From assembly GCA_001910725.1 (NCBI GenBank), contig MJGA01000010.1, positions 806,001 through 870,000 of the forward strand: a DNA stretch of 64,000 bases, written 5' to 3'. Both the position numbers and the translations under genes were made by a program. The DNA is from Phanerodontia chrysosporium. Its lineage: Eukaryota; Basidiomycota; Agaricomycetes; Polyporales; Phanerochaetaceae. The notes below the pieces were generated by a model, which did not search any database, was not told the origin of the DNA, and worked only from the letters and a program-made list of their open reading frames with translations. This document shows positions 29,966 to 49,133 of this stretch, piece after piece. Within the stretch, counting starts at the first letter, position 1, and every line of letters starts with the position of its first letter.

Positions 29966-31521
29966 CTACTTTGACACACGCCGCAGCTCGCGCTCGATAG
30001 CGTAGCGCACAGCCTCTTCGACGTCGAACGCGATATGTGTGGGTTGATGGGGCGGGAGACCGTTGGCGGGGTCGTAAACGCCTGTCTGCACGAGGACAGA
30101 GTTCCAGCCCGCAGCGTTAGCTCCTGCGATATCGGACTCTGGGTTGTCTATAGCAGTATTTGAGCATGCCAGGATTTCTGGCGCGATGGCCACTACGCAC
30201 CGCCAATCATATATCTAACGGCAGCTTCAATGGGAGTGTTGGGACTAGTACGAGTTAAGGACTCACACTTGAGGCATCTCGCTCACATGTCCTCCCTGTA
30301 TCTCCGCTAGCCGGTCGCGTAGAACCTGCTCTGCGAACTTGTACGTCGCAGTCGTCGGCTTGCCGAATTGCGTGTATGGGTAGGGTTTTCCTGTCAGCGC
30401 ACGGAAGACAGCCTGGAACGCCTCGCGGAATGCGCCCTGGCCGAGGCGCGGTCTGTCGAAGTCCGAGCGCCAGATGAGATCGGGGTTGCAGAAGACGAGC
30501 TCGACAGGCACTTCGGCCTCTTTGTAGGGACCACCGATGGCACCTCCTGAGAGGATGATGTCGCAGAGCACCTGCACGTCCAGAGCCCAGTTACGCGGGT
30601 CGTGGAAGACGAAGACAGCGTGGATGGGAGTCTTGGAGAAGTCTACTGGCTGCGCGACAGTTAGCTAGTAAAGACGCGAGTGTAACAGACTTGCCTTTGC
30701 ACAAGCACGTTCGTCTGGCGTGAGGTCGTAGAATGGCCAGACGCTACGCTCTCATTCCTATCAGCGCAGCGGACACGCATATATGCACCACAACGTACGC
30801 TGGATTCCACGCTTTGACATCCAGGGTAGTGTAGGCATGCTTGAAGCCGTATCTAGCGACGCGTCAGGCTTCAAAAAAACACCGATGGTTCGAGAGACTC
30901 ACCCTTCTGCGACCTTTCTCACGTCGTCATTCAGGCCTCCAAGGACCAGCACCGGTTTGTCAGCGTACTTCTCCACTACCGTCTTCAAGATTGTATGCGC
31001 TTGTATATATTGGGTAGGTTTGATCTGTAGCTGAATTAAAAAAAAAAAAAACCTAGAGATAGATAGAGCGTGCACACCTCGAAATCTAGTTCCTTGCTCA
31101 GTCTTCTACAACGTTCGGCCTCATCTACTCCGCCGCCATTCGTTAACTAGACGTCTCGTCAGGACATGCCCTAGCATCAAGGGTGAACAGGGTACCAAGA
31201 TGTACGGAATCTTTCTGAAAGAGGCTTGAGAGAAGGTAGAGGACGGGCGCAGGACTTGCTCACGTTTTAAGAGGATTGTCGCCTTCTAACATTGTGAGAG
31301 CCCGCTTTGCTGACGGAATAGCGCGGTTGCCTCGGATCAAGACGCCATCCTGAGAGGGGCTCCAGAGGTCTTCATTTGCAAAATAGTTTGGTTGCTCACT
31401 ATGTCAAAGGCAAACGCCAAAGGTACACTTCCAGACTTGCTCGCGTTACCTGTCTCGAATGCTCATTAGCCGTTTCAGAGCTAGAAGTTGCGCAAGCGGC
31501 GTACTTGGGAGCTGAATCCAT
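29966..31521 (-). CDS. HAD-superfamily class IIA hydrolase (CECR5/YKR070W-like)
   Basis: Predicted mitochondrial HAD phosphatase of unknown substrate. Motifs in order: AFAFDIDGVLIRGNRAIPSA (motif I Asp), YILLTNGGGVDEAERCRR (motif II), VLVLGGLNDDVRKVAEGYGF, AWNPAVWPFYDLTPDER, LCDIILSGGAIGG, FGKPTTATYKFAEQVL, VYMIGDNPESDIAGANAAGW (motif IV) and the C-terminal TGVYDP. Key junctions: exon end 31400, exons ~31264-31349 and several short ones, a GC-AG intron at 30651-30694 (donor GCAAGT), and a stop at 29966-29968. The 5' end is uncertain: the ATG at 31521 would need one extra base near 31430 to reach the DIDGVL frame. Confidence 0.85.
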
Positions 31522-31865
31522 CTCTTCAAGAATAGTGAGGCTGCATTTGCGCGTCCTGATTGTGTCAAGATACGAGGAGATAGGCAGCGGCGTCCTGGGG
31601 CTAAGAGAGACATGGCTGTCGGCCTGAGGCCTGAGGGCGAGACACGGGTGCCAGAATAGGAAACGATGGGCTTTGGATCCTAACAACGCCAAACAAATCG
31701 TGGCCAGAGACCTCCGAGTTGGGTACCACCTCTTGCCCGCAACCATCACCTTGTGGACTATACAAGAGCATAGGACAGTTACTTCTTTGTATGTCTGCCT
31801 TCTTAATACCGCTAGAGCTGACAAAGACTTGGCTATACCGTCCAGTTTCCTGCTTTACCAGAGCT

Positions 31866-33031
31866 ATGATGTCCACAAGCCAACCCTCGCCAGCTTCTGT
31901 TCAGCTTGCGTTCCATAGATCCCTGCGGCGACACTCGGAGCTCTACTTTAGCACTGGCGACATCATTCTATCTGCAGGCTTTGGCGACGCGAGGACTCTT
32001 TTTTGCGTGCATCGCGTCGTACTCTCTCATCACTCGCCCATCTTTGAGGACATGTTTGCCATCCCGTTGCAACCTGATGCGAACGAGCTATATGACGGAC
32101 TTCCTGTGGTCTGCCTGTACGATGAGTTAGAAGACGTCGAAGCGTTTCTGGGGTTCCTGTACAACTTTGGGTACGCGGCGTGTCGTGTACACGCTACGAC
32201 GTCCAGACCTCATGTTACCTCAACAGCATATCACTCAGGAGACTGGATCCAGACACGCCTCTTCGTGTTCGCGGCATTCTGAAGCTCGCTGCCAAATATC
32301 AAGTTGACTCCGTACGGGCTCGCATCATCCAGCGCCTTGAAGAAGACTGGCCGACGTCTGCTCTCTCTTGGCTGCGTTTCTCGAACGACGAAAAGCTCTA
32401 CAGCGAAGACTGCGCGCGCTACCTCGCCCTTGAGGACGGCAAATACCCCGAGGACCACTTCCCCGAGCCAGCGGCCGCGATCCGTCTTGCACGCGACTTC
32501 GACATCCCGAGCATCCTACCGGCGGCGTACCTGCGCCTGTTGTACGCGGACCCAACGCTGAACTGGGACGACCTCCGACAGAAACGCGCAAGCGGCGCGC
32601 CCGGGCGCAGCGTGCGCTCCGCGCGCTGGCACCTGCTCGACCACGTCGACATGCTCCGCGTCGCGCAAGGGCGCCTGCGGCTCGTGCAGAGCCTGCCGCA
32701 CGTGCACCGCGCGTTCCTGCTCGGCGGCCAAGCGTGCCAGAGCGCCGCTGACGCGGATGAAGAAGAAGACGACAGCACGCCGAATTGCCACCAGATCATC
32801 GTACGCAAACATGACGAGTTCAGCGCGACGCGGTACTCGAGCTTCTGGACCGGCGTCGACGAGGCGGGGCGCCCTGACCCCATCGCGGTCCTCCAAAAGC
32901 TGAGGGACGCCGCAGGAGACTGGAAGATGTGCGCGTCCTGCACCGAACTGTTTCGCTCCAGAGTCGCTGGAGAGATCAAGCGGCTCTGGGACGACTTGCC
33001 TAGGGTATTCGGCCTAGTTACGGAGTCTTAA
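31866..33031 (+). CDS. BTB/POZ domain protein (Agaricomycete type) 1
   Basis: Exons 31866-32170 and 32227-33031 give 369 aa with no frame break. An N-terminal BTB fold: GDIILSAGFGDARTLFCVHRVVLSHHSPIFEDMF, then LPVVCLYDELEDVEAFLGFLY, PDTPLRVRGILKLAAKYQVD, RLEEDWP, and FPEPAAAIRLARDFDIPSILPAAY. The C-terminal part carries LLDHVDMLRVAQGR and a CxxC pair (MCASCTELF) with KRLWDDLPRVFGL, the usual tail of this expanded mushroom family. Such proteins often act as Cul3 adaptors, but the partner is unknown. Head-to-head with the HAD gene. Confidence 0.85.
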
Positions 33032-33180
33032 AGCCCCGTCCACTACTTTGTGTACATCCGATGCAGTAATCCAAAAATAAGGCGATGATTATGGATGTAT
33101 GTATTCTCGACGTGCATGCTTAAATGCGCGGCACGTCATTATAGCATGTTGTAAAGTATGGGTCCATTGAACGGTAACTC

Positions 33181-34632
33181 TTAAGACTCCTTGAGCCGCT
33201 TCGGAGAGTCGCCACTCGCGCTCCCCATCAGGGCCTCGACAGCAGCACGCTTGTTCGAAATGATCGGCTCGTCCTCGTCGTCGACAGCGTCGCCTACAGG
33301 TCCGGGGTACGGCCGCGTGCGCACCGGGGCAACCGCCTCGAGCTCCTTTTCCGAGACGGCGAGCAGCTTGCGGAAGTTGACGCCGATGCCGCGCACGCGG
33401 TGCGCGTGCCAGTCCCAGTGCGCAGGATGCACCGTCTGTATGTGATGGAACATGTTGTACTTCCAAAAGACGGGCCGCGTCTTCGTCTGCGGGTCCTTCG
33501 GGCACAGAGGGCAGGGCACGGGTACATTTGTGCACGGCATCACGCTCGAGAAGCGACGCGCCTTGTTCAGTGAGAACGAGTGCGCGTGTGGGCAGTTTGA
33601 GATCGCTGCGGTGTACTTGGACGCGGGCGAGTTCGCCTTGACCAGATTTATCTCGCAGCCGGCACGTCCGCAGAAGCCACAGGGGTTGCCTGGATGGACC
33701 TGCATACAGTTTGAACGCAGTCTTAAGAGAGGACACCGAGACTACGGGCCACATACCGCATACTTCATTTTAGGTCCTTCCGGCGCACCGACCAGCTGTC
33801 GTAGTATATGACTGCCGACATGATTTCGCACGTTCCTCTTCAATATGGTCTCGCCACATTGTAGACAGTCGACAGACTCTCGGTCCTTCTCTACTCTATC
33901 TTCATTCTGGGTGATGACGTTGAAGCTGCTTACGGCAGGTGTTGGCGAACCTTCTGCATAGAACATTGTCAAGATTCCGTGCACAGATGGACCAGGTGGC
34001 GTACCCTCCAAGATCAGAGTATCTGGCAAAGGTTCAGACTGAAACCGCCTATGCGCTTTGCGTGTTCTCTGCAGTGGCACAACCGGAAATTCTGGCAAAA
34101 CGTTGGCCTGAACCCCAATGTCGCAGTACTGTTTGCTCGCGTCTTGTTCCCGTGCTTTGCCCTTGCTGCCGCCAGACGCGATAGGAGCACTCACGCTTTC
34201 GGTCGCCTGTCCACGAGAACCTGGCCCGTGGCTAAACAGCTCCGTCCTGAGCGCAATCGCCTTTGCCTCCTCTTCCTTCATGACCTTGCGCGCCGCCTGC
34301 CGTTTGCACCGCTGGCTCTCTCGGTGCCTGTCCATGTGGTACGTCGTCGCGCTCGAGACCTTGATCACCTGACCGCAGTCGGGACATGGCGTGGCGGTGT
34401 ACTCAATGGACGTATACGGACCTGGTGCTACAGGAAACGCGCTCATGGAGGTTGCTGGCGGGTGCCCGGGAGTGAGACTGGGTGGCGGAGGGTAGCCGTA
34501 CGGCAGCGGTCCAGCCGGAGCAGACAGAGAATAGAACACCGAGCCTGGTTGCCAATACGCGTAAAAGGCATTGCGAGACGTGCTCGGAGCATCGATCTTG
34601 GAGGTTGGCGATGCAGACGACGGTGGGCTCAT
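33181..34632 (-). CDS. Zinc-finger protein with C-terminal Cys/His cluster
   Basis: Exons 33757-34632 and 33181-33699 give 464 aa. After a Pro-rich N-terminus a C2H2-like finger is visible (TPCPDCGQVIKVSSATTYHM then HRESQRC), then a second CxxC ... HxxxH (DCLQCGETILKRNVRNHVGSH), then a Cys-rich block (CGFCGRAGC; PCPLCPKDP; FHHIQTVHPAHW) and a basic tail (SPKRLKES). Similar architecture is common in Agaricomycetes, probably nuclear, function unknown. It is the left neighbour of the inserted element, 350 bp from the tRNA remnant. Confidence 0.7.
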
Positions 34633-34989
34633 CTGAGCATGAGGGGTAGGATCAAGTGCAGAGCGCGCTTGTGGCCTTTAGTTCGGTAATGAGATGGAGA
34701 AAGTTGTACATGCGTGGCAAGCCAGAATTCGTACAGACAAAATGCTTTCGAGAGTGCCTCTCAGTCTTCAAGTAAAGCCTCAACACAGCAGGCAATACAA
34801 AACAGATCGCTGTCGATATCCACGGCTCAAGCTGCGTCGGGCGCTTACGCTGACAGATGGGCGCTTGAGCTCACTCCGCCTCGAGATCGCCACAACAAAC
34901 GCATATTACGGCTTTCTACCTCGTTTTTCTGCGTCTTTCGACCGCCATAAAGATTTTGGATGTCTAAGATGATCAAAAAGCAAAAACCC

Positions 34990-35018
34990 TGCCCCAGTGA
35001 GGCTCGAACTCACGACCT
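34990..35018 (-). pseudogene. Isolated 3' half of tRNA-Asn (attachment-site duplicate)
   Basis: On the minus strand this 29-nt stretch gives variable loop, T arm (GTGAG/CTCAC around TTCGAGC) and the 3' acceptor strand TGGGGCA, then stops: no matching 5' half exists in the next 170 bases. With two flanking bases, 34988-35018 matches 44101-44131 (3' half of the intact tRNA-Asn) at 29 of 31 positions in the same orientation. An 11-bp inverted copy of its T-arm sequence lies at 35035-35045 (arms 34998-35008/35035-35045), on the element side. Confidence 0.75.
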
Positions 35019-35067
35019 GAATCTATACAGCCTATTCGAGCCTCACAGGAGCAGTTCCCACGGGGTT

Positions 35068-35122
35068 TCCGAGCGAGACTGGAGCACTTGTCGCCAGGGT
35101 GTCCGAGCGAGACTGGAGCACT
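35068..35122. repeat. Two direct 21-bp repeats near the left element end
   Basis: An identical 21-mer (TCCGAGCGAGACTGGAGCACT) occurs at 35068-35088 and 35102-35122, period 34 bp, about 50 bp inside the left junction and just upstream of the first TATA box. Position suggests accessory binding sites or promoter elements; no copy was seen at the right end. Confidence 0.7.
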
Positions 35123-35132
35123 ACTCGGGAGG

Positions 35133-35140
35133 CATAAATA
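35133..35140 (+). promoter_or_regulatory. TATA-like box of the first element gene
   Basis: CATAAATA 44 bp upstream of the ATG at 35184, followed by a run of GC-box-like CGCCCC units (~35150-35179). Confidence 0.45.
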
Positions 35141-35183
35141 GGGCGCCCGGCGGGGCCCCGCCCCCGCCCCCGCCCCCGCTGAC

Positions 35184-36512
35184 ATGCCGCTGTTAGACGC
35201 TCAGACAGCCGCGTCGCTTGCGAACGCTTTTGCCAACGTCGCCCACGTTCTTGCCAACGTCGACCCTCTCCCGTCCACTGCCACCGCCGCCTATGCTCAA
35301 CAATGGGCCGACATTGAGAACGCCGCTCTCCAGCTTGTACCGCATATTCGCCGCCTCTGGGGTCAACGTGTCCTGAACGGAGACGCTCCCCCGTCGCCAT
35401 CGCCATCGCCATCGCCGTCGCCGTCGCCGTCGCCGTCTGCCACTCGCAAAAAGACAAAGCTCGGCGATCGCGTCGAGTTCGTCTTGGAAGGATTCTGGGA
35501 CGGGACTGTGCAGCCGGACGAGATTCTCCTCGTCATCTCTCGCAGACCCTGTGGACCTCGGGCTCAGTTTGAAGATTGCGCGCTGCGCTTCCTCTGCCGA
35601 GGCTATCCCCAGTCAGAGACACACCAATGGGCAAGTCGATTTCCTTCTTTTCGTGGTACACTCTCATGCTCAGACGCTGACGCTGCCTCGCAGAAGCAAC
35701 TCCTGCAGCCATATGTCCAACCGCTTCCCGCTCTCGCCGACATACAAGCCACGATTCAACAAGCTGACACGGTCCGCACCCTTGAGGACCGGCTCTTGGT
35801 CCGCCACCAGGTACGGTCAAACCTTGGGGCCTTGTCTGTTCCTCACCTCCCGTCTGCACAGTGTCTGGCTGGCTTGGACGCCGCTCAAGCTCGCCAATGC
35901 TGGCTCGTTCACGTCCTGCAGCAAGTCAACGCACTCAAGTTTGCCATCGATTGGAGCCGCCTTTCTGGCGCAGGCAGTCAGACCGCCAAGACTCGTTTCT
36001 ACCAGAACGCCTTTGCCTCTCACATGCAGGATCAAATCCCGCACGACGTCGACGATCCCATCCGATATGTCAACGACGCTCTCAGCGAAGAGTATCGTGC
36101 ATGGATGCGCTCCCAAGTTGAACCTATCGTCACCGGTCGGAACAGGCTCCTCCTGCTGTACAATACCGTCAGCTTCCTTTCTCTCTCTCTCTCTTGGCCC
36201 CGCGTACTCATATGACCTTGTTTACAGTTTGGTGCAGGCGTCGTCTTTGACCCTCTTTGGGATGTAACCACCCTCGGTTCGCGCGCATCCAAGCAGTTCG
36301 CCGCCCTCGTCGACCGCATTGGCAAGGGCATGCCCAAGGACGTTGAACACGGCGACACACGCAGTCAGCAAGCTACCGTCCGGGAGCTTCACCTGACGGC
36401 TCGCATGACCTTGACATGCATGCTTTCCATCCTCGCGGGCCGGCAGCTGCAAGAATACGTCCTCACCTTCTTTTTTGATAATCCTCCTTCAGGAATGTTG
36501 GTCGCTGTGTAA
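35184..36512 (+). CDS. Unrecognised element-encoded protein, first cargo gene
   Basis: Exons 35184-35630, 35694-36167 and 36228-36512 give 401 aa. The first intron uses a GC-AG pair (donor GCAAGT at 35631); the phase fits only this choice. A Ser-Pro repeat (eight units from a trinucleotide-rich run at ~35390-35440) divides an N-terminal helical part from a mixed alpha/beta C-terminal part. A basic KKTKLGDR stretch follows the repeat. No zinc finger, helicase or nuclease motif is visible. The stop lies 26 bp before the TATA box of the recombinase gene. Its place beside the recombinase suggests a helper or cargo role, which is inference. Confidence 0.6.
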
Positions 36513-36538
36513 CACTAGCACATTGTTGTATAAATACC

Positions 36539-36546
36539 CCCATCTG
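36539..36546 (+). promoter_or_regulatory. TATA box of the recombinase gene
   Basis: TATAAATA starts 35 bp before the ATG at 36574 and 26 bp after the stop of the preceding gene. With a usual TATA-to-start distance the 5' leader would be almost absent. Confidence 0.55.
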
Positions 36547-36573
36547 CGAGACGTGAGCAGCACCTGCCTCGTC

Positions 36574-39500
36574 ATGTCTGGTGGTCGTCCTCCTCCTGCT
36601 CCCAACCCACTCCGGCCTACTCCCAAGGTACCTCGGCACATGCAGCCCACGCATGGTATGCATGTAAGAGGGTTTGAGCTCGTCCAGAGCACTGACACCC
36701 TTGCACAGTCCCTTGGGCGCGGCCGCAGCAGCCGGCGGCCCCACCGCAACCCACCCCGGACGTCCCGGGTGGTTTTGACATGGAAGAACGTATGTTCACG
36801 TCCAGGTGTCCCCTTCCCGCACTGCCTGACAACCCCAAAGCCTCTACCGCCAGCACTGACCTAGCCTTTCGGCAAATCAAGGCCTCACGACCAGGCATGG
36901 CTCAGATCACGCACGCCGCACAGGCTTACAACCCCGCCGTCACCACTGGCGGGTTCGACAAGCGTGCCCAACACAAGAACACGTTCATGGGTGGCGCCAA
37001 TCCCTTCAACGTCCGCGACGGCACCATGGTCCACGAAACACGAGATCATCCCCTGCTCGCACCTGCGCCGGGCCCATCGCAGTCGCGACCGCAGCCGCAG
37101 CCGCAGCCGCATGGCGATGCCGTCCCCCGTGCTCCTACATCGATTCCAGCAGCCTCCCTCAACGACGACTGGCTCAAGAACACGGACAAGGCCAGGTTTG
37201 CCCGACGACTCCAGGCGATGGACGACGAGGATCCCGAGGCCTTCCAAAAGTTGGCCGACGAACAGTACGAGCTCGCCCACCGCATCTTGCAAAGGCACAA
37301 TCCGCACCAAGAAGTCAAAATCAAGACCTGGGTCAGCGTGTGGTACACGCTTCTTAAGCGAAAATACCCTGATCTCTCTCGTGACCGTCTCTTTCACACT
37401 GACGTCGTCCACGACCGCACTCGATGGGCCCTCCGAATGCGCGCAAGTCCCCAGTTTATCACATCGTGAAGATCTTGTCTAATTTTTTTGTTCCAGACAT
37501 TGTTGACCAAGGGAAGATCGGGAGCACAATACGTTACGGCCGTCACCCTCCACAATTGGCTCACGACCATAGTCTACTGCATCGTCGCCTATTGCCACGG
37601 CGACAATGGCGAACCTGACGGCGTGCGCATCCTCGTCAAGTTGAACTTGTTTGATCAGCTTCAGCAAGAAGTGCTCGAGCGCAAGTCCTCTCATGTTCAT
37701 GTTTGGCCTCCATCGGTGCTGATCGCTACTTGATGCCAGTCATCACCGAGCTCGATCTCCAGCGCTATCCGTTTGAAAAGCTCTACTACGGCGAGACGGA
37801 GGTGCTCATGATCATCCGACAGACCCTTCACGACTCCGAGAACGGCACCATAGAAGAACGCATTGTTGCGGCCCAGCACATTACTGTGCTGCTCATCATC
37901 TTCTTTGCCTCGCTTCGTGCCGGCACGGTCGGGACGTCTTGCCAGCTCTTTCTTGACCAAGGCAAGGTAGCGGCCCGAATTTCTGCTCTGTAACAGTGAC
38001 CTGACTCGCATACAACTAGTTCATCAAGCTCAAGGACCTGCGCTTTTACAAGCGAGACAAAATGACGATGGACGCGGACGTCCGCCTAAGCAACTGGAAG
38101 GTGCAGCAGTCCTGTCAAGCCGTCGAGTCCTGTGTCTCACGTACTCCAGGGCTATAACATGGCCCACGCCATCCTCCGATACATCCGTCTTTGTGCAGTC
38201 GTCAAGTCACAAAACGTGCTTCTCTGCGTCTCCATGTGGCTCACCATCCTCGTCACCTGGCGCAGAGGTTTCGAGCAAAAGGTGTGCGACATGTTGGCCT
38301 TGTGAATCGTCCACCGTGGCTGACAACCATGCAGACAATGGAGGAGGTCATGGCTTGCCCGTACGCCGAGCTCAAGGTCCTCCCGGAAAAGGCCGAGGAG
38401 CCTCTGTAAGCGTCATTCGTACCGGGCCACGATTCCGCCGATGGCTCACCCCCGTGCCAGGTTCCTCCCGGTCTCGAAAGGTGGACATCGCCTTGTGGAA
38501 GGAAAGGTGCCTGCCACTGCCTCGGCCATCTCTGCCGCAATCCGACACCGCTGCTTGCGCGCCGGCCTCCCCGTGGGTACAGCTGGAACCTTTCGTCGTG
38601 GCTCCGCCAATGATGTTCGTCTTTGCCAATCATGATGATGAGATGCTCACTTGTATTACAGCTCGGAATCAAGCTTGGCAACCAACAAGCCAAGCTCATC
38701 CTCAACCATGCAGATGCCAACTCGACATTTGAAAAGTTTTACTCTCGCGGCACTCACAACGTCGACCTCGTCAATGTCCGGCTAGCCGAGAATTTCGAGC
38801 TCACGCAAAATCAAAAGGTGACACTTTCCGCCGCTCGTGCATCGACTCCACTGACATTACATAGGCAAGCCTGCGTTTGCACGACTTTACATCGTCGGCG
38901 GTCGTCGCCATGGTCACCCGTCCGCTCGAGAACGATCACATCTCACGCCCACAAGCAGAACGTGCACGCAGACGGCAACCACCTCCTGATCAGAAGGAAG
39001 CCATTGCGGTGGGTCACAAAGTGCAGCGGTAGGTTGCTTCAAGGCTAATTGAATCTCACTCCTAGGAAAACCCTGAATATATCGAGGCCGGCAACTTTAT
39101 GGACGCAACGTACACAGCTGTCCGCAACTGTTTCCAGAAACCTGCGCACCTCCAGGAGCCCAAGAGAACGCGGGCCAACTACAAGGCGGCAGTCAACAAG
39201 ATGATGGCGTCCTGGACCCGCATTGCCGTCAATGAGGACATCCAGAAAGTGAGCTCCCCCAAGTCTCGAGCCGTCGTACTGTGCACTTAACAACTGCTGC
39301 TAGCACATGGCTGATTTCGAGCTTGCGCACAAGCAGTTGGAGACCATCAAACGCAAAGCTACCCGTCAAGTTCGCCAGCAGTCAAATAAGGCGGCCCGCC
39401 AGGAAGGTGCCATGCAGAACCATCCGTTGGATACTAGCCAAAATCGCCTCAAGGCCGTCGAAGCACTCCCAGATCTACCTGGTAACGTTCTCAACGAATA

Positions 39501-41271
39501 CCTTGGGCGGCCTTCGCCTACAGTGGCGCCGTCACCGACCGTGCCGCAATCCAGGCAGTCATCCTCAGCCACCACCTGGATGAAGCGCGCAGAACTTGAG
39601 GCCTGTACGTCCAGCACTTGCATTTTCTTTCCCACTAAAAAATGCCAATGTCTCAACAGTCGCAAACTCCCTCGTGGACGCTGCCATCAACGAGTCTGAT
39701 GTGGTTCTGACCCCCTCAGATTCGTGCAGTGACCACGAGTTTGCCTCCTCCTTGCAGACTCTTGCCTCACGCGACTCTGGCATCTTCATCGACGACACCA
39801 ACATGGATGAAGAGCTCGACTTTGCACGCAACTCCGAGACCAAGAGCATGATCGGGGTCATCGAGCGGAGCGTGCGAAAGGATCACCCACGGGCACCTGA
39901 CTACAACATCTCCAAGATCCTCAACACGGGGACTCAGCACGCTAAACGCTATGAGCAAGAGTCAGAAATCTTCACCGCCGACGTGACGCTCAATCACGAC
40001 GCCGCCCAAGTTCGCTTCTCGGACGCGACCTGGCTTCAAGACGACGACATCTCTACCAGCGAGAACATGGCTCGGATCGAGGCAGGCTTACAACCAAGCA
40101 CCGTGTCCCAAGACGGGACGGTCACCGCGGACGGCGTCCTCGAGTACAGGCTTGATGACAACTCGAGTGGCGTCAAAGACTACCTGGGTCTCTCCCCTGA
40201 CCTGGTTCGTCAGGCTTTGGTCCGGAAGCTGGAGGAGCCTCTGCTTCGGATCAAGAATGCGCACAAGCAATACAAGGTTTATTATTTTTCGCCATCCGCA
40301 TCCTGCTCAGCTGATACGACTACTGTAGGCTGACGGAAACAAGTGGATCTGCCACAAGTGCAAGAACTTGCATGCGGCCGATCCAGACGCAACGAAGCCT
40401 CATCCCCTACAAGACATCTCGAAGCTATTCACCCACCTGTGAGCTTGTCCCTGGCTCTCTCGCATATATCTCAAGCTGACAGTGTTCAAGACGTGACGAA
40501 CACAGCCTTTGGCGTGACTTGCCCTTGGATATGGTGAAGAAGAACGCACCGAGCAACATCTTCTCTTGTCCAAGTGTGTCGTGCGAGTTCAAGTACGTAC
40601 ATACGGTCACTGTCGCTCGCAGCCCATCTGACCCTCTCAAGGTCAAACGCAGTCAGCAAGGTCCGAGCGCATTGCGTCTCGGAAACGTGTCCCGACCATG
40701 TGCTCTTCAGACAGCTCAAGGATCTTCACGACAAGAGGTACCCGAATTACCATCATCACTTCAAGACACAAGGTACGTCTTGAATGCCTGCTATAGATAA
40801 CGACGCGTCATCCGTGCATCTAAACCAGATGACAAGCCGAAAAAGGCACGAGCCGAACGCACAAATCTCGAGGCTTCGCAGGGTACGCCCGTTCCATCTC
40901 TCGAATGTTGTAACTACTCCTTACTCGACGTTGTACAGATGATATCGAGCAGGTGGCCGGTGGAGTTAGCATGCTCACAAACATGGACGCGGACAAGCTT
41001 AGGGAAATTGCACGCAAGGTAATGCTCCCCAGTATGCGACGACGACATGCTGATTCACTCCCACAAGGGCGACTTTGATTCCAGCAGGATCGACTCCCGT
41101 CTGGAGCATGCCAGCGACGCTGCCCGCGACATCTCCCGCTTGATGCTCACGCCAGGGTCTGTCGGCTCCTCGCTCATGGCTGACGTACCGATCGTCTCCT
41201 TTTCACGCAAGGACATGCAAAAGCAGGAAGGAACTGGGCAGTACGCGAAGAAGAAAAGTGGAAATAAGTAG
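36574..41271 (+). CDS. Tyrosine recombinase, DUF3435/Crypton/captain-like, with zinc-finger C-terminus
   Basis: Presumed integrase of the element. Nineteen exons: 36574-36655, 36709-37442, 37497-37680, 37740-37966, 38020-38100, 38150-38281, 38335-38405, 38461-38614, 38662-38817, 38865-39008, 39066-39248, 39304-39604, 39660-40276, 40329-40438, 40491-40592, 40642-40772, 40829-40882, 40939-41018, 41068-41271. They total 3,747 nt and join in one frame: 1,248 aa. Catalytic-type residues appear in order: R393 (FFASLRAGTVG), the NWKGYN turn known from DUF3435 proteins, QNVLLCVSMWLTILVTWRRG, R549/R550 (GTFRRGSAND), H571 (LNHADA) and the candidate nucleophile Y582 (FEKFYSRGT). The C-terminus has a C2H2-like finger (WICHKC ... 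FTHLRDEH) and a second Cys/His cluster. Introns 37443-37496 and 37681-37739 are GC-AG. No damage seen, so activity is possible. Confidence 0.85.
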
Positions 41272-41370
41272 CCTCTGTCAGCTGTTTACATGTATCCGAG
41301 ATCACTCGCAGTTGTATCATATGTACTGGAGACCGAGAGTTTGCAGCGACGGTAGCGAGTGCCTGGGGTC

Positions 41371-41395
41371 TCACATTGGGTGTGACCCAGTGTGA
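41371..41395. promoter_or_regulatory. 25-bp imperfect palindrome upstream of the coiled-coil gene
   Basis: Arms 41371-41381 and 41385-41395 match at 10 of 11 positions with a 3-bp centre. It lies between the recombinase stop and the TATA-like box at 41492-41499. The shape suits a dimeric DNA-binding protein; which one is unknown. Confidence 0.45.
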
Positions 41396-41569
41396 CTGGT
41401 CGTGTCGCACGTCGCCGCCCTCCTCCTGCATACACCCGCCTCTGTCACATTGCTGCTACGATACGGCATTGCGTCATGGCTCCCCAGCACCTATTTAAAG
41501 TCGCTGACCTCTGCAAGAGGCCCTATTTTCTCTCCTCTATCCTCCTCCCATCAACTGCGTCGAACCACC

Positions 41570-42437
41570 ATGCCTCCGAAGCGCAGCAATGACAGTGGCG
41601 ACTACTCTGGTGAAAATAAGCGGGCAAAGAATGAGCTGGACAGTATCACGTATGTTCTCAGCAGTTTCTTCTTGGCACCGAGCTCCAATACAACACCCCA
41701 CAGCCTCAGCAAGCACGGCGCTCACGCTCTCGTGCACCGTCTCGAGTCTGCCGCCGATTTACTCATCAAGGCCGACGATTCTGTCCTGCTCAAGTATTTC
41801 AAAGAGATCGAGCGACTCACAGCGTTGCTTGAGGACGCTGGAGTAACTCGTCTGATGACTACAGAGAACGATGCACTCAAGAATATCATCAAGAGTCTCG
41901 AGGATCAAGTGGAGCGTTTGACTGCGGATGCTCGCCGCCTCGACGAGCAGCTCAACATTTCGCGCATGGAAGTATCTACCTTGAACGCCAAGCTACAGCA
42001 CGTTTTGGCCACCCATTCACCCGATAACAGTACAGTTCACTGCATATATGCGCTCCCGTGCCAAATAACATGTGTCTTGCAGGTGCCTCCGAGTCGTGCC
42101 TCCTTACACCTGAGGTATGATTCTGCCTTTTTACGTTGCAGTGTTCTCATCATCCATGGCTCAGGAGACGTCTCCCGCTGCGTGGAACATGTCCTTGCGT
42201 GGAGGCAACTCAAACGTCAAGGAGTCTTTCGGCAACACCCTACCCGGCCTTCCGACATTTGACATTTCCGAGTACAATCTCTCTGCTTTTGGCGACGCTC
42301 CGGCTGGAAGCTCGATGCCTGAAGTTGAAAATGCTAGCCTCGACATGGCTCTGCCGGCGCCCAACTTTGCCCCCTTCGATGATGGCTTCTCTAACTTGTT
42401 TGCATCTCCGTGGGCTGCATCTGATGGCCAGCTGTAG
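41570..42437 (+). CDS. Element-encoded coiled-coil protein with possible activation tail
   Basis: Exons 41570-41649, 41704-42029, 42083-42114 and 42165-42437 give 236 aa. The N-terminus is basic (PPKRS ... NKRAK, a possible nuclear localisation signal). Residues ~60-150 are heptad-rich (LKYFKEIERLTALLEDAG, LKNIIKSLEDQVERLTADAR) and should form a coiled coil. The C-terminal ~85 residues are acidic and aromatic (LPAPNFAPFDDGFSNLF), like transcription activation domains. No classical bZIP basic region is present. A TATA-like box lies at 41492-41499. It may be a regulator of the element; no homologue is recognised. Confidence 0.6.
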
Positions 42438-42439
42438 CT

Positions 42440-42759
42440 CAACTGCATACTAGTCCTTCTGTTGTGCATGTTGCCTTTGTTGCATACCGCAATAATGACT
42501 CGGTTGAACTCGTCGTCTTTGTGGCTCTCAGGGACAGGCTTTGCAGGCATCAGAATGTCCAGCAGTCGCTCGCGTCCACGCTCGCATTCACGCAAAGCAT
42601 ACACCAGCACCTCACAAAACTGTTGAAGAGCAGGCGTGAGACCGACGCGCGACATGCGCGGGCGGGCAGGCGCGCGCGTGTCAGACCCCTGACACCGCGG
42701 ACCCGGAGGACTCTGCGCCGTGCGCGCAGACCACCCCGCACCTCCTGCTCAGTAGACAT
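42440..42759 (-). CDS. Possible small antisense gene between cargo genes
   Basis: An ATG at 42759 opens an Arg-rich frame, and a second frame from 42655 reads a more protein-like helical stretch (LQQFCEVLVYALRECERGRE). The two could be joined by an intron near 42690, but no good donor fits. Weakly supported; it may be a chance frame. Confidence 0.2.
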
Positions 42760-42868
42760 GTTCTACCGCGCCACCCTTACGTGAGCTCGCTGTACCAGAC
42801 AGCGAGCGAATATTCTAGGTATTATACGTCATTTTCTGTAGCTTTCCTCGACATGTATGTAGCTAGAG

Positions 42869-42876
42869 TATAAATA
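42869..42876 (+). promoter_or_regulatory. TATA box of the last cargo gene
   Basis: TATAAATA, followed by a pyrimidine-rich leader and a well-formed leader intron (GTAAGT at 42958 to CAG at 43017) before the ATG at 43055. Confidence 0.5.
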
Positions 42877-43054
42877 CAGGGTCTCCCCGTCGTCCTCGTC
42901 CGTTCACTCGTCTATACCTGCGCGAACAAGTCTATTAATTCTTCTATTCTACTACAAGTAAGTCTATATAATTTTAACAAAAACTGATCACACGCCTGAT
43001 GCGTGGATGCGCCACAGGACGTGGAGCTTCCAGATCCTGCACGACTTCGCGACT

Positions 43055-43462
43055 ATGAGTGCGACACACAGCACCTCGTCACTCAGCTCGTCGTCCGAGC
43101 TGCCATCCACATTGCGCCCCCACCACTGTGCCACCGGGTTCACGTCAATCACCTCGAAGACCGCGCGGAAGCCGATTCGGCAGGATGAACAACGACGCAC
43201 GTGCGATGATGATATTACAATGTACCTCAACTGTTCCGTGAAGGTGGTGAATGACTGTGGTTGGTGCGTCGACAAGGAGTTGTACAACGCCTATAGCGTC
43301 ACGGTAGACATGAGTCCCCTGGTGACATGCACGAGCATCTACACAGAGTACAAGCACATCAGGCACGACCTGCCGCAAGCAAGACTTGTCCCGACCGACC
43401 GCTCCGACTTCACGTGTGCCGTAGGCAGGGGGAGGGCGGAGAACGAAGATGGGGAAGTGTAA
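43055..43462 (+). CDS. Small element-encoded protein, unrecognised
   Basis: 135 aa from the first ATG after the leader intron. The Ser/Thr-rich N-terminal half is followed by a more ordered Cys-containing part (CDDDITMYLNCSVKVVNDCG, then WCVDKELYNAYSVTV). No signal peptide. An overlapping minus-strand frame (42988-43287) also looks protein-like, so the strand is not fully certain; TATA box and leader intron favour plus. Confidence 0.4.
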   Translation: MSATHSTSSLSSSSELPSTLRPHHCATGFTSITSKTARKPIRQDEQRRTCDDDITMYLNCSVKVVNDCGWCVDKELYNAYSVTVDMSPLVTCTSIYTEYKHIRHDLPQARLVPTDRSDFTCAVGRGRAENEDGEV

Positions 43463-44102
43463 CTCCAAGACTCACATATATGTGCTCGAAAAAACTCAGA
43501 ACAAACTGAGTAGTCGCTGACTGTTGAGGTAGTAATTCCCTCAGGCCCGCTTCTGCAACGAAAGGTACGCTTCCGGGCGTGGGCTCTGAGTCTTTGTCTG
43601 TTTCTATTGGGGAAATGCTTGTTCAGTAATGTATATAGTCGGTAGGTTGAAGCTGGGGTGCACCTCGAAAGGACTCTTGCAAACTCATAGATGGGAATGT
43701 GAAGACAAAGGCATGGTGGAGAGGGTGTATTCCAGATGTGTAACAGCAGCATGCGTTGCAAACCATGACCAGAGTAGTGAGCCACATGCGCGGGCTCAAC
43801 ACAGCCTGCTGGTCATGAATTTGCGCGACAGGGATGTTGACATCGACAGCGGGCAAGGGAGAGTAACACTCAGCTCCGGGTTTGCACGCCGTGAGACTGT
43901 GACGTTCTGTGACATGTCACATCCCTTTTAAGGGAAGGTCTCATCACAATTCTCGGTGAGTTGGTTGAGCGCGTGTTTTGCTGGGAGAGAGTAGTATCAT
44001 GGAGAACAGAAGGTAGCTCCGAGCAAGAATATATGGATAGCCTGACCATGACCGACGTATCCTGCAAAAAGATAGCTTCCAAAGTACCACTACAAAACAA
44101 CC
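43463..44102. other. Right end of the element, non-coding
   Basis: 640 bp up to the tRNA 3' end with only short chance frames. Confidence 0.45.
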
Positions 44103-44203
44103 TGCCCCAGTGAGGATTGAACTCACGACCTTCCGATTACGTAAGCAGATCACATGACCCTAACTTAACAGTCGGACGCTGTAACCAACTCAGCCATGGG
44201 GCA
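44103..44203 (-). tRNA. tRNA-Asn (GTT) with 28-nt intron; integration target
   Basis: 101-nt gene, 73 nt after splicing. Acceptor TGCCCCA/TGGGGCA is perfect, the anticodon stem TCCGA/TCGGA closes the loop CTGTTAA (anticodon GTT), and the T arm is GTGAG/CTCAC around TTCAATC. The intron follows position 37, as in nuclear tRNA genes. Its 3' end faces the element, and its 3' half is duplicated at 34990-35018. Confidence 0.92.
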
Positions 44204-44363
44204 CTGGCATTCAAAGAACAAGTATACCACATGTACGTTGTATTTGCCGAACCAAGTCTGACGCGTCGCGCGTGCGGCGTCCTTCACTCTCCTGGCACTG
44301 ACCTTCGTACACAGACCCTTCATCCCTCCTGTATTGCCTTGTTATTTCGAGCATCTCTCAACA

Positions 44364-44995
44364 ATGGTGCGTTAGTCTCGCTTCATATCATCTCTGCACA
44401 CTGAAGATTGCTCCTAGAACTCCTCCTTACGCCTAGTACCCTCCAGCCAACCCAAGGCTGCCTCGGTCGAAGATACCGCGAACGGCTTTGGCCTTCACGA
44501 CACTCTCTCGCATGGCCCGCGGAGTCTCGCAGCAGAGGTTCAGACCGTGAGCCCAATCAAGGACAGACTTGAGAACGTCCGTAATGTTTGTGCAATTGCG
44601 GTGGTCATATGCTGACCTTGCGGTGCTAGTGGGAAGAGACCCAAGACAACTTCAAGCTCAATATGCAAAGGAACGTCTATGGTTTACACGCACCCGTAAG
44701 ACAGCTCATGGAGCGCAACATTGTTTCATTCGTAAGCAGTGTCCTAGAAAATGAGCGTAGCACAGCGCTGAGTTTGATGTACAGAACCCCCACATGCCGA
44801 CCTACCGCACGACGAATGTGCATTTGGACATTCTTATGGGGAGAGACGAGACGATAGAGCCTGCGGACTTCATGACGCCTGGTGAGTCGTGCTCTGCGGG
44901 CATGAGGACATCAGACTGATCCATGGTGTGCAGCTTCTGCGTTGTCCCAGCCTTTGGATATCCGCGCCGAGATGGAGAGGCGTTACCGGCTCTAA
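44364..44995 (+). CDS. UMP1: Proteasome maturation factor UMP1/POMP
   Basis: Chaperone of 20S proteasome assembly, degraded once the core matures. Exons 44364-44366, 44418-44576, 44630-44731, 44785-44881 and 44934-44995 give 140 aa. The first coding exon is just the ATG. Conserved runs: NGFGLHDTLSHGPRSLA, VSPIKDRLENWEETQDNFKL, RNVYGLHAPVRQLMERNIVSF, NPHMPTYRTTNVHLDILMGR, DETIEPADFM. The donor at 44577 (GTCCGT) is chosen because it restores Trp after ENW. It lies 160 bp from the tRNA, on the host side of the element. Confidence 0.92.
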
Positions 44996-45593
44996 CCTAC
45001 ATGGAATGTATGTTGTAATGGATTATTCTGCGTATGATGATCTTGTACTCTAGAATCTCGTTGCGTTTCGACCCGTCTCCCATGCCCTCGACTACTATCC
45101 GGTTCCTACTAACGGTCGCCAACTGTCTGCTCATGATCATCGTATGTGCAGTTGGGCATCAACGTTTCAACGCCCATCTGTTTCCTTCAAGCATTGTCAG
45201 TGTCCATCGATGTTGTGGCAAGCATAGGTACAGGTAAGGGTGCAACGTTATCGGTTTGGCAGTACATGCCTGTTGTCCGTGCGTGTCATGTAGTCTCATC
45301 CATTCATGACACATTCCAAGCCTCGGAGTGCATCATGTCGCTTGTCTCTGGCAGGCTGGGACTGACGAGCTTCATGCACGTGCGCGGTGTTCAGACTATC
45401 CCCAGTGTCTGATATAGCTGTTCTCAGACCGCTCACCTGCCCTCCATTGCAGTCTTGTTGAAATCACCCATCGAACTTTGTCGCGGATCTGACTCAATCA
45501 GGTACAGGCTGTGACGTTACCCACGTTCTACCCTTGTAATGCCTTTCCACGCTGTGCTCACCTCTTCTCTTCCGCCTCTCGTCACGATACACT
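44996..45593. other. Intergenic, no supported gene
   Basis: 600 bp between UMP1 and the next gene; nothing recognised. Confidence 0.5.
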
Positions 45594-47843
45594 ATGGCTA
45601 GCAATAGACGGAGCTCGATTTCGCCATGGTCTGCCATAGTGGAATCGTCGTCGATCCAAAGCACCTTAGGCGATGGCACGACTACCTCTGATCAGCCTCC
45701 TGGCGCAGCGATCGCCAGCGTTTCGGTCGCAGCGCTGCATTCACTGCAAGATCTTGTGGAAGCCGTCGGCACGCTCCCTTGCATTCAGTATGTGGCGAGC
45801 CTAGCCATCAAGATACTGCAGACGATCGAGGTCAGCGTTCTTCTGCATGGTCATCGGAGCAGACGTTGATGCTTACCTTTAGCAAATGAGGGTGACCGAA
45901 CGAGAACTGCAACTCATAGGTCTGCGGGCGCGCAACATCGCTGTGGCTGTTGCGGATGCTTGCAAAGGAGCAGGAGCAGCTCTCAACGGTCAACTGGAGA
46001 ATGATTTGACTCAGCTCACAAAGCGAGTGACCCCTTCATAACGATGAGTAAACTAATATCCAGTCGACTAGCTCTATGCAGGAAATACTGCGATACGTAG
46101 AAGATCTGTCGTCACGGAGCAAGATCAAGAAGATGTTCTACAAAACTCAAGACGCGACGGCCGTCAGGTCGCTGGATAACGAGCTGGTCCACGCCTTCCA
46201 GATTTTCTCTGTCAGTGTGGCTCCTGTACATGGTGGTCATTCCTAAAAGGCTGTTCTCCAGGTACAGAGCAACGTAAGCCTACGAGTGACACAGAATCAA
46301 ATGCTCGACATGTTGAAAAGTATGTCAGTTGCGGTGAGTAGACTATGCCTCACTGCAGGATCTCCCGCCCATGTCCTGCAACACAGCAAACGCAGCCGCA
46401 GCTTCCGATCCAGGACGTCCGCCTTGATGTGCCCGAGGGCCTGTACCTTATTCGCGCTGGCAGCAACAACAGTGTCATCGAATGCGAACATGTGAAGTCT
46501 AGCCCGACGTTTGTCCATGCTTACGTCGCTCCACCGGGAAAAGGATAAACCCTTACCAATTGTGGACCATATACTCGCGACGCGGGCTTGACTTCCGCTA
46601 CACGATAAGAAACTTTGCGACGGGATCAGTGTTGGACCGCCAGCTCGGAGATGAGGGAGGTAACCAGGTTGTATGTTGGTCCTCGCGCGGAGGCGACACC
46701 CAGACTTGGGAATTCATGGGGAGCAGGCAATCAGAAACGTACGTCACGACTATACTACTCAGTTTGGTATGCTGATTTGGGATATGCAGGACAGACTACT
46801 TTTACATCCGAGGGTGTAACTCGCAGATTGTTCTTGACGCCAAGTGTCCAGGTGGGAGTGACTGCAACTATCTCCACATCGCTGAGGAGTCACCAGAGGG
46901 ACTGGTGAAAGGCAGAGAATGGTGCCTCATACGAATACCTTGGTCGTCGGTCTTGCCGTTCCCCTCGTCGAACCCTTCCGCGCCGGCGCTTCCCTCTGGA
47001 AATGACCTTCCTCGACGACAATACCTCCTGCAAAATGTCGCATCCGGAGGGTATGCCGCAGCCGTTGGGCTAACGACAAGGAGGACAGCCCGAACGTGAT
47101 GATTACCACTTCTACCGCGGAGGCAACTCGGTGGTATGTGCTTCACCAAGGGCAGAGCCCGGGGCACGCGCAACGGCGCCGACAGCCCGCGAAGACCTCT
47201 TTGCACTGGTTGCGAGGAGCGACCGACGGCTGGCAACGCTCGACCACTACCACTCGCGGCACATCCAGGCGGTATACCGGCGCTTTGGGCCGCAGGACCC
47301 GGCACACGCCTGGCGCGTGCTTCCCGCACCCTCGCCGCGGGCCTTCATCTTCGTGAACCGGAAGACGAACGCGCTCCTCTGCCAGACGCCGATGACGAGC
47401 TCGCTGGCAACGGCGACGGCAGACTACGCCGGGCATGAGGCCTGCCAGTGGCGCCTCGTCGACGCGTGAGCATGGAGCCGTGCCGCGTGCTCTACGACTC
47501 CTCGCTCACGATCGTCCCGCCGGACTTTGCGGGGCCGCCACAAGCCGCGATGCCCACCCCGGCGACGAGCGTGCAGAAGTTCCTGCGCACGAAGGTCATA
47601 TCCAGCGACGATCAGCGGCAGTTCATCGAAAGTCTGCGACACGAACATCAGGTTGTACGCGATATGCTTCTGCAGGACGGCTTCACGAGTCTTGTTATGG
47701 CGCCCCAGCTGATCCGCGGGTGGAAGGACGGCAGGGTCCACGAGGTGTCTGTCGTCGTACGGGATGAGGAGGAATTGATGGGTGTCCAGAGATTCCGGGG
47801 CAAAGGGATGTACAGCTTTGACAAATGCGTCGACCGCAGGTGA
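45594..47843 (+). CDS. HeLo/MLKL-like helical bundle + beta-trefoil (ricin-type) protein
   Basis: Exons 45594-45830, 45883-46026, 46064-46210, 46262-46333, then from 46387. Residues ~40-200 resemble the four-helix N-terminal domain of fungal NLR/MLKL-type cell-death proteins (LPCIQYVASLAIKILQTIEQ; ELQLIGLRARNIAVAVADAC; SSRSKIKKMFYKTQDATAVR). The second half shows beta-trefoil repeats with QxW-type motifs (GLYLIRAGSNNSVIE, QLWTIYSRRGLDFRYTI, TQTWEFMG, QYLLQNVASGGYAAAVGL, ACQWRLVDA). Four one-base losses are needed to keep it open (~46540, ~47070, ~47090, ~47466). The last would add the 123-codon frame 47472-47843 as a C-terminal extension; otherwise that frame is a separate ORF 2 nt after the stop. 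The intron 46027-46063 (37 nt) is unusually short. Function is inferred only. Confidence 0.6.
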
Positions 47844-48100
47844 TGTGGACTTTGGAAGCTTTCCTGTCTTCTTGCTTTGTCTGGACACGTCTATTTATTA
47901 CGTCTTCTGACACGGACAGATGTACCACAGGTTGACTCCTCCTATGCTAGCATGTGCACAACTAATTATGTTGGGTATTTATTCAACTAATGCAATTCTG
48001 AGTGTCTTGAATCATCCAATATGGGTATATGAGGGGAACACCGATTCTCAATGGAACGCGCCAGCAAGGGCTCCGCCAAAGGCGTCAAGCACCGACCTCT

Positions 48101-48808
48101 TCATCGCCCGAGGGGCATCCCGCTCTCGTCTTCGAAGTGATCCCCGAGGTCCTTTCTACACTCTAGCATTGTGAGAGCGATGAAGCATGCATCGAGTAGT
48201 CCTGGTGCGATGGACGCATCTGGGAAGGCTTCAAGCTGAAGGTAGCGGTTCTTGGTCTGCCAAACCGCCACCGGGCGATTGCGAGCGTTCTCAGTGGTAA
48301 CCTGGAGGCTGTATGAGCAAGGGGGCCTTCGAGTCCGAGTGCATGCATTCACACGTACGGTATAGACACTCCGATGCTTCGATAGCAGATAGGTCTTGTT
48401 ATCATGAGTAAGTCGCCTAGTCCTAATGAACGTATGCTAAGTACGATGCTACCCACGAACTGATGCCACTTACGAGTCGTCCTCTAGCAGCGGTGCCCAC
48501 ATCCTACACTCGACGCGGCCACCCTCGAGCTTTACCATCGGCACTCGCTTATGCCACTCGAACGTCGCAAGCGTCGCGCCATCCGCCGCGCGCACAAGCC
48601 TTGTCTCTCGCACCCTGCGATCCGTCTGCACGCGATACACCGCCAGCCCCGATCCGTACGAGTCGACTGCGATCGAGTTGAGCACGTACGGCATCGACGG
48701 TGCGTACGGGTCACGGCTCCGGAAGTAGTATGTGATCGTCCGCATGTACGCTGGCGGAGGCGGGGCGCCTGGCGGGGCAGCGTAAGGGGTGTATGGTGGT
48801 GCAGACAT
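48101..48808 (-). CDS. DUF6593-like small protein
   Basis: Starts MSAPPYTPYAAPPGAPP, then a beta-rich core (TITYYFRSRD, LVRAADGATLATFEWHKRVP), a short exon (YLLSKHRSVYT) and a last exon (RNRPVAVWQTKNRYLQLEA ... LLDACFIALTMLECRKD). Pro-rich start, central W and the helical end LLD..xxLTxLExR match a family frequent in Agaricomycetes (DUF6593), function unknown. Introns lie near 48421-48475 and 48300-48355; the phase of the first is not perfect. Confidence 0.6.
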
Positions 48809-49133
48809 CGGGATGGGCTGACAGCGAGGGCTGGGCTTACTGCTAGAATATATAGATGCGAGGTATGTATATTTTCTGTGAGCAAAAGTATGATAGGGGC
48901 TTCGTTACCGGTCGTGCACCGCCAGCGCGCGCAATGTGAAACGATGGCGCACGGTTACCAAGCGTGGCTGTTACGTCGCTCGGGAGGTCATGTGCCCTGG
49001 AGGGACTTGCGCTGACAATGTCAAGGATGACAACGGAGTTGGGCGGTGAATGCGACGGAGGCATATGAGCAGTGGTAGATTAGGTACGTAGATGTGCGAT
49101 AGCTATACACATGGAGCAGCCTCGAGTAACCAA

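Follow-up and report, generated by a model that had tools for sequence, protein, structure and literature searches.

Introduction

Islands of bacteria and archaea that carry a tyrosine integrase insert at the 3' ends of tRNA genes, where the entered gene is restored and a repeat at both boundaries leaves an intact tRNA gene at one end and an orphan half at the other. tRNA genes are transcribed by RNA polymerase III (pol III) and contain an internal promoter element, the B-box. Here, we analysed a stretch of 64,000 nucleotides from the basidiomycete Phanerodontia chrysosporium (the window), which corresponds to positions 806001-870000 of contig C2 (GenBank MJGA01000010.1) within a genome of 39.0 Mb in 145 contigs. 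In this window, an intact tRNA-Asn gene and an orphan 3' half of the same tRNA flank 9.1 kb of DNA with a gene for a probable tyrosine recombinase. We consider it likely, from this one locus, that the enclosed DNA is an island whose recombinase resembles the 'captain' enzymes of the fungal elements called Starships, and which targets the 3' end of a tRNA gene, restoring that gene in the process; this is the best reading of the locus. Like the bacterial and archaeal islands, it combines a direct repeat, formed by the tRNA 3' end at either boundary, with an intact gene at one end, an orphan at the other, a presumably restored gene and, judged by residue spacing, a gene of the tyrosine-recombinase type. 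Unlike them, it resides in a fungal host, its recombinase-like gene is rich in introns with a core that finds no NCBIfam or PHROG match at E values up to 10, and no conjugation or phage gene was seen among the three proteins examined.

The papers cited here were available in part, and our statements on described systems refer to the available text. Starships of Pezizomycotina are at least 15 kb long and carry a DUF3435 captain as leading 5' gene (PMC12134995); their repeats measure 2-12 bp, and some of them target 5S rDNA, likewise a pol III gene (PMC12153272). Our element shares with a Starship captain a similar spacing of the residues R, K, R and Y (PMC12506042), and with some Starships a pol III gene as target, a tRNA gene here and 5S rDNA there (PMC12153272). 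It differs in its basidiomycete host, in the absence of a DUF3435 match, in its size of 9.1 kb and in a gene order with gene 1 ahead of the recombinase (PMC12134995), and in its 31-bp tRNA repeat (29/31 identical; PMC12153272). Cryptons are DNA elements with a tyrosine recombinase, a proposed movement as circles and 4- or 6-bp terminal repeats (PMC3212892); those of fungi have a GCR1_C domain and mostly 6-bp repeats (PMC3212892; also PMC8969392). Our element is probably likewise a DNA element of the tyrosine-recombinase type, for which a circle is proposed, unlike Cryptons in its 31-bp repeat and in that a Pfam scan of its recombinase-like protein yielded no GCR1_C match. Dada elements resemble it as eukaryotic DNA elements inside tRNA genes, tRNA-Asn included, and are unlike it in that they employ a DDE enzyme, leave a short target duplication and do not rebuild the tRNA gene (PMC8869645).

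Cryptophyte Polinton-like viruses, many of which carry a tyrosine recombinase, had no tRNA gene in the vicinity of their insertion sites (PMC12220804). For nimaviruses that carry tyrosine recombinases, an association with telomere repeats and 28S rDNA is described (PMC10871703), and in dictyostelids retrotransposons target tRNA genes and the tyrosine-recombinase element DIRS-1 inserts into other copies of itself (PMC5006619). An element of eukaryotes that would enter a tRNA gene by means of a tyrosine recombinase and rebuild it is not described in the available parts of PMC12153272, PMC12134995, PMC3212892, PMC8969392, PMC12220804, PMC10871703, PMC5006619 or PMC8869645, and in a search of titles and abstract openings of open-licence PMC papers, none of the matches listed concerned a fungal tyrosine-recombinase element at tRNA genes.

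An intact tRNA-Asn gene faces an orphan 3' half

An earlier note on this DNA had described an intact, intron-containing tRNA-Asn gene and an orphan 3' half in the same orientation, and this layout is borne out: the two copies form a direct repeat (D2), the orphan lies on the side faced by the 3' end of the intact gene, and no 5' half accompanies it. The intron of the intact gene sits in the anticodon loop, and the anticodon reads GTT. Both differences between the copies (35003/44116 and 35005/44118) fall into the T-loop. Coordinates of all features are compiled in Table 1.

Table 1 Features of the island and its borders (window coordinates; a dot marks features given without strand).
Feature	Position	Strand	Remarks
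Left host neighbour, zinc-finger-like open reading frame	33742-34632	-	open frame; zinc-finger matches sub-threshold
Putative host 3' flank and trailer of original tRNA-Asn	34787-34987	-	aligns to 3' flank of C56 tRNA-Asn
Left junction (attL-like), orphan 3' half of presumed host tRNA-Asn	34988-35018	-	29/31 identical to 44101-44131, without 5' half
Inferred crossover segment, 13 bp, T-stem and variable loop	35006-35018	.	repeated at 44119-44131
Inverted copy of tRNA 3' end, putative recombinase binding site	35035-35055	+	18/21 to canonical end
Two tandem 34-bp repeats, putative arm-type sites	35063-35130	+	direct repeat D6; units at 35063, 35097
Gene 1, 422 aa, two exons	35184-36512	+	exons 35184-36167, 36228-36512; stitched model; no Pfam match
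Probable tyrosine recombinase gene, 20 exons, 1223 aa, intact	36574-41271	+	gene model; putative R368, K411, R524/R525, H546, Y557
Gene 3, predicted coiled-coil protein, 236 aa, four exons	41570-42437	+	stitched model
Nested solo long terminal repeat (LTR)	42621-42979	+	dispersed copies; 5-bp target duplication AAAAC (42616-42620 / 42980-42984)
Dispersed repeat, nested or cargo	43000-44016	.	partial copies C72, C44, C109, C98, C58 (two), C80
Arm-like word TCCGAGCRAGA, right-end copy	44018-44028	+	window occurrences 35068, 35102, 44018
Right junction (attR-like), intact tRNA-Asn	44102-44203	-	Rfam RF00005, 55.8 bits
Right host neighbour UMP1, gene start	44364-44800	+	PF05348 E 1.1e-22; gene continues past 44800

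The combination of intact gene and orphan half is real and not a product of chance. By our own arithmetic, one half placed at random in 39 Mb would show the distance, orientation and side found here with a chance of about 5e-4. A chance match as the source of the pair was ruled out, given that the motif matched twice in the window and five times in the genome, compared to no match in 100 shuffles. Throughout the genome, the tRNA-Asn 3' end was matched five times at up to three mismatches (reversed control pattern: 0) and the 5' half four times (window, C33, C56 and C80), which leaves the orphan as the sole unpaired 3' end among the five, next to four complete tRNA-Asn genes. As a yardstick we used tRNA-Gly, with a query from a gene in the window, and all 17 of its 3' ends were paired by position with its 17 5' halves. 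Pairing was examined for these two tRNA families, and the genome match counts are lower bounds. On C55 (L071:539-612, 5497-5570), two complete tRNA-Gly genes lie 5 kb apart and are 97% identical over 74 bp; the second has one changed base in each half, and no other similarity was found between their surroundings.

A dispersed repeat derived from a tRNA was also ruled out, as positions 34640-35018 have only five genome matches at E <= 10: the segment itself, the three other tRNA-Asn genes and one 22-base match at E 0.15. A search of the genome with the 3'-end pattern did not find a second allele of the locus in the assembly. One observation speaks against the intact gene itself, namely that ARAGORN in bacterial mode missed it; among the other three genes, the program called C56 alone, as 'tRNA-???' with no amino acid named. 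The Rfam tRNA model finds all four complete genes, those on C33, C56 and C80 being absent from the gathering-mode listing and recovered under more permissive filters. Since the presumably rebuilt gene in the window scores like the other three (56.3, 56.3 and 56.4 bits), the half supposedly supplied by the element keeps the tRNA structure.

The flank of the orphan half resembles that of another tRNA-Asn gene

If an element had brought its own 3' half, the orphan should be the original 3' end of the host gene. BLAST of 34840-35018 against the 3' flank of the tRNA-Asn gene on C56 gave 78% identity along 181 bp, the half included (E 2.7e-30). Over 300 bp, the orphan flank scored 85.5 against the C56 flank, compared to 15.9 +/- 3.6 (maximum 29) for 100 shuffles; the 3' flank of the intact window gene scored 13.0 at a shuffle mean of 13.5. 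As the flank of the orphan matches C56 and that of the intact gene does not, the orphan has the appearance of the host's original 3' end, and a replacement 3' half would consequently be present in the intact gene, as predicted for an integrase-type insertion. The native flank is recognised here via the paralogue C56 only.

The T-loop versions point in the same direction. The orphan half is identical to C33 and C80 across 29 bases. Its T-loop version is shared by these two of the other three genes; the intact gene differs from all of them, and C56 shows yet another version. This fits the suggestion in the earlier note that the two mismatches separate a host version from an element version. We infer that the 3' half of the intact gene (44101-44131) is derived from the element, and its 5' half with the intron (44132-44203) from the host.

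Repeats inside the left end, one of them resembling the tRNA 3' end

Directly inside the orphan half lies a near-copy of this tRNA end in inverted orientation, which agrees with the canonical 3' end at 18 of 21 positions; the best agreement in 5000 shuffles of 35019-35180 was 15. It is part of an inverted repeat (I3) with arms 26 bp apart. The two tandem repeats that follow continue from the inverted copy at 35035 in a 34-bp register. Their core agrees with the tRNA end at 14 of 21 positions, a value equalled or exceeded by 128 of the 5000 shuffles, so the tRNA likeness of the core is weak when taken alone. Exact copies of the 20-base core occur at these two sites only in the genome, and at three mismatches four further sites were found compared to two for a reversed control.

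In the window there are three occurrences of the word TCCGAGCRAGA; 40 first-order Markov sequences contained it 0.15 times on average and at most once, and it was present in one of 20000 shuffled right ends. When any equally good word common to the left end and a shuffled right end was admitted, three of 100 shuffles had one. Judged from the sequence, the repeats at the left end, including the inverted near-copy, are probably binding sites of the recombinase, and their likeness to T-arm and acceptor would explain the choice of target.

The recombinase-like gene

The earlier note had also stated that the 9.1 kb encode a tyrosine recombinase. Support for this comes at the level of a residue motif in an intact gene, and no family model is matched. 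Residues 66-1223 of our model are identical to a spliced database protein (P0001) from a 4912-base public contig, which we most simply take to be a spliced transcript, since the genomic frame is interrupted by introns. Two of the 19 introns (window 37443 and 37681) are of the GC-AG type with the same donor GCAAGT, and P0001 supports both junctions.

By eye, and in P0001 numbering, the candidate catalytic residues are R303, K346, R459/460, H481 and Y492, with spacings of 43 (R-K), 156 (R-R), 22 (R-H) and 33/32 (R-Y). The captain of the Starship Sanctuary has R260, K308, R427 and Y458 (spacings 48, 167 and 31), and Cre has R173, K201, R292, W315 and Y324 (spacings 28, 119, 23 and 32; PMC12506042). 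The third position before the second arginine, a histidine in Cre and a tyrosine in the captain (PMC12506042), is G or T here and constitutes a real departure. The C-terminal part of the protein appeared rich in Cys and His by eye, and this piece had no Pfam match. Based mainly on the residue reading, we are fairly confident that the protein is a tyrosine recombinase.

Searches with the full protein gave two noise-level matches in Pfam, and DUF3435 (PF11917) was not matched by hmmscan up to E 10, a setting in which the HMMER filters drop most weak matches. A six-frame search of the genome for DUF3435 found no match, and its controls matched nowhere either. The first 751 residues yielded two weak, irrelevant matches in a PDB sequence search, and none of 20 stretches of viral contigs that fit a pattern was confirmed. 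Among database proteins, residues 150-700 had one match, the identical protein itself (scoring was confined to the 7996 candidates with the most words in common), and the 411-residue core had none at E <= 10 among 4404 candidates. As control, a piece of the neighbouring UMP1 gene had 143 matches in the same database, of which 120 were listed, the best three of these from Phanerochaete and Phlebiopsis. Since UMP1 is highly conserved, this control vouches for the presence of mushroom proteins and not for the detection of a fast-evolving relative.

Weighing the alternatives

The claim of the earlier note that the element attaches at the tRNA 3' end with a copy of its own gains partial support from the C56-like flank of the orphan, the score of the presumably rebuilt gene and the repeats at the left end. 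The note had proposed to collect other copies of the recombinase, and within its own genome there are none: each of the 17 matches to its exons falls within the gene in the window (a search for dispersed copies scored 40 of 74 candidates). This single occurrence weighs against a tRNA-targeting island, and so do the following observations. The core of the recombinase-like protein has no Pfam match at E <= 10 either, and a single-sequence structure model with a mean pLDDT (predicted local distance difference test) of 36.6 was useless. The 26 bp between the inverted arms exceed the 6-8 bp of typical sites (PMC3212892). At the right end there is a single 11-base arm-like word, statistically modest and picked post hoc, and the ends as a whole are not alike (direct 9.0 compared to a shuffle mean of 8.4, inverted 7.0 compared to 8.0). 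Moreover, the 3' flank of the intact gene is weakly like that of C33 (24.5; maximum of 100 shuffles 20.5) and scores 22.5 against C80 (shuffle maximum 24.5). These alignments are scattered and heavily gapped, and a native flank could show such likeness too. The 5' flank of the intact gene has no match beyond shuffles to C56, C33 or C80, so the paralogue gives no proof for that side, and a comparison of the left neighbour protein with the C56 stretch gave no convincing match (best E 0.058). Finally, neighbouring tRNA pairs do exist in this genome.

Such pairs, exemplified by the tRNA-Gly genes on C55, lend substance to an alternative that we regard as unlikely. Two tRNA-Asn genes may have been adjacent here, and a deletion or rearrangement may have removed the 5' half of the left one; the recombinase-like gene would be part of unrelated mobile DNA that gathered between them. 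The interval does contain other mobile DNA, the solo LTR and the dispersed repeat, and the flanks of the intact gene may just differ from those of its relatives, as the 30-bp trailer of C80 is unlike that of C33; the weak likeness to C33 fits as well. Such a history requires several independent coincidences, orientation among them, and leaves two things unexplained: the inverted tRNA-like copy and the repeats that adjoin the broken end on the inside, and a recombinase-like gene between both copies.

It appears very improbable that the junctions stem from an element of another type, such as a tRNA-targeting DDE transposon or retroelement, with the recombinase-like gene being a passenger or belonging to the host. 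The three tested proteins had no match to a transposase or integrase family at E values up to 10, and the short target duplication that Dada leaves within a tRNA gene is unlike a 31-bp repeat that rebuilds the gene (PMC8869645). This explanation draws on the presence of LTR copies and on the ability of Dada transposons to enter tRNA genes, tRNA-Asn among them (PMC8869645). We give hardly any credence to the view that the recombinase relative is domesticated or degenerate and the island an old, immobile relic, which would agree with the single copy, with 91% identity of the nested solo LTR to its best matches and with a spliced database copy suggesting expression, and which is opposed by the orphan half having kept full identity with C33 and C80 along 29 bases and by a protein whose sole relative among many mushroom proteins (UMP1 control) is itself, unlike a conserved host gene; it fits the insertion mechanism and bears on present activity alone.

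Proposed mechanism of insertion

Returning to the island that targets a tRNA 3' end, we propose that a circular or otherwise joined element with a captain-like recombinase would enter the 3' part of the host tRNA-Asn gene by site-specific recombination. The recombinase would bind T-arm and acceptor in the tRNA gene as well as similar sites in the element and exchange strands there. The element would bring its own 3' half with the T-loop version AAT into a host gene with the version GAG. If these versions are assigned correctly, the crossover would lie in the 13 bases that are identical in both copies and located on the element side of both mismatches. It would join the 3' half of the element to the host 5' half, giving the intact gene at the right, and the 3' half that the host gene had before (GAG) would come to lie at the left end together with its native trailer. 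Alternatively, going by the same bases, the crossover may have occurred on the other side of the two mismatches.

On balance, we lean towards a separate lineage of captain-like elements in Basidiomycota, which would employ T-arm and acceptor of a tRNA as attachment site, rebuild the gene with a spare 3' half and carry sites that mimic the 3' end. In that case, a eukaryotic tyrosine-recombinase element would have reached the safe-site solution of bacterial and archaeal islands, entering a tRNA gene and repairing it in the same act. As an element in a fungus must supply both the B-box and the 3' end, this solution would also have to satisfy transcription by pol III. Captain-like elements would then extend beyond Pezizomycotina and beyond giant size. 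The locus would further supply an attachment pair, defined and about 30 bp long, that lends itself to direct testing.

Further genes, nested DNA and neighbours

Gene 1 belongs to a small family and has a distant relative at L070:4820-5820 (C80, approximately 959.8-960.8 kb), which is 24-35% identical in three tblastn pieces (best E 1e-11). The C80 locus was considered as a second element and rejected, as its 10 kb yielded neither a significant recombinase match nor a hit to an RNA family. The protein of gene 3 gave only weak, sub-threshold matches of coiled-coil type in Pfam.

The copies of the dispersed repeat on C72 comprise three pieces that jointly cover nearly all of 43000-44016. At C72:156632-185842, about 29 kb of extra DNA split a repeat copy at one precise point (corresponding to window 43480) when compared to the window and C44, and this insert could be a large mobile element. 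With the solo LTR nested and the dispersed repeat possibly so, the element proper may consist mainly of 35019-42620 and the last 86 bases before the tRNA.

Concerning the host neighbours, named as a zinc-finger gene and UMP1 in the earlier note, UMP1 was identified with confidence and the zinc-finger matches stayed below threshold. The UMP1 piece is 92% identical to a protein of Phanerochaete carnosa and 90% to one of P. sordida. In 1-kb windows, GC skew was consistently negative across the island (35000-43000), at about -0.06 to -0.2, and ranged from about -0.08 to +0.08 outside it (30000-48999 examined).

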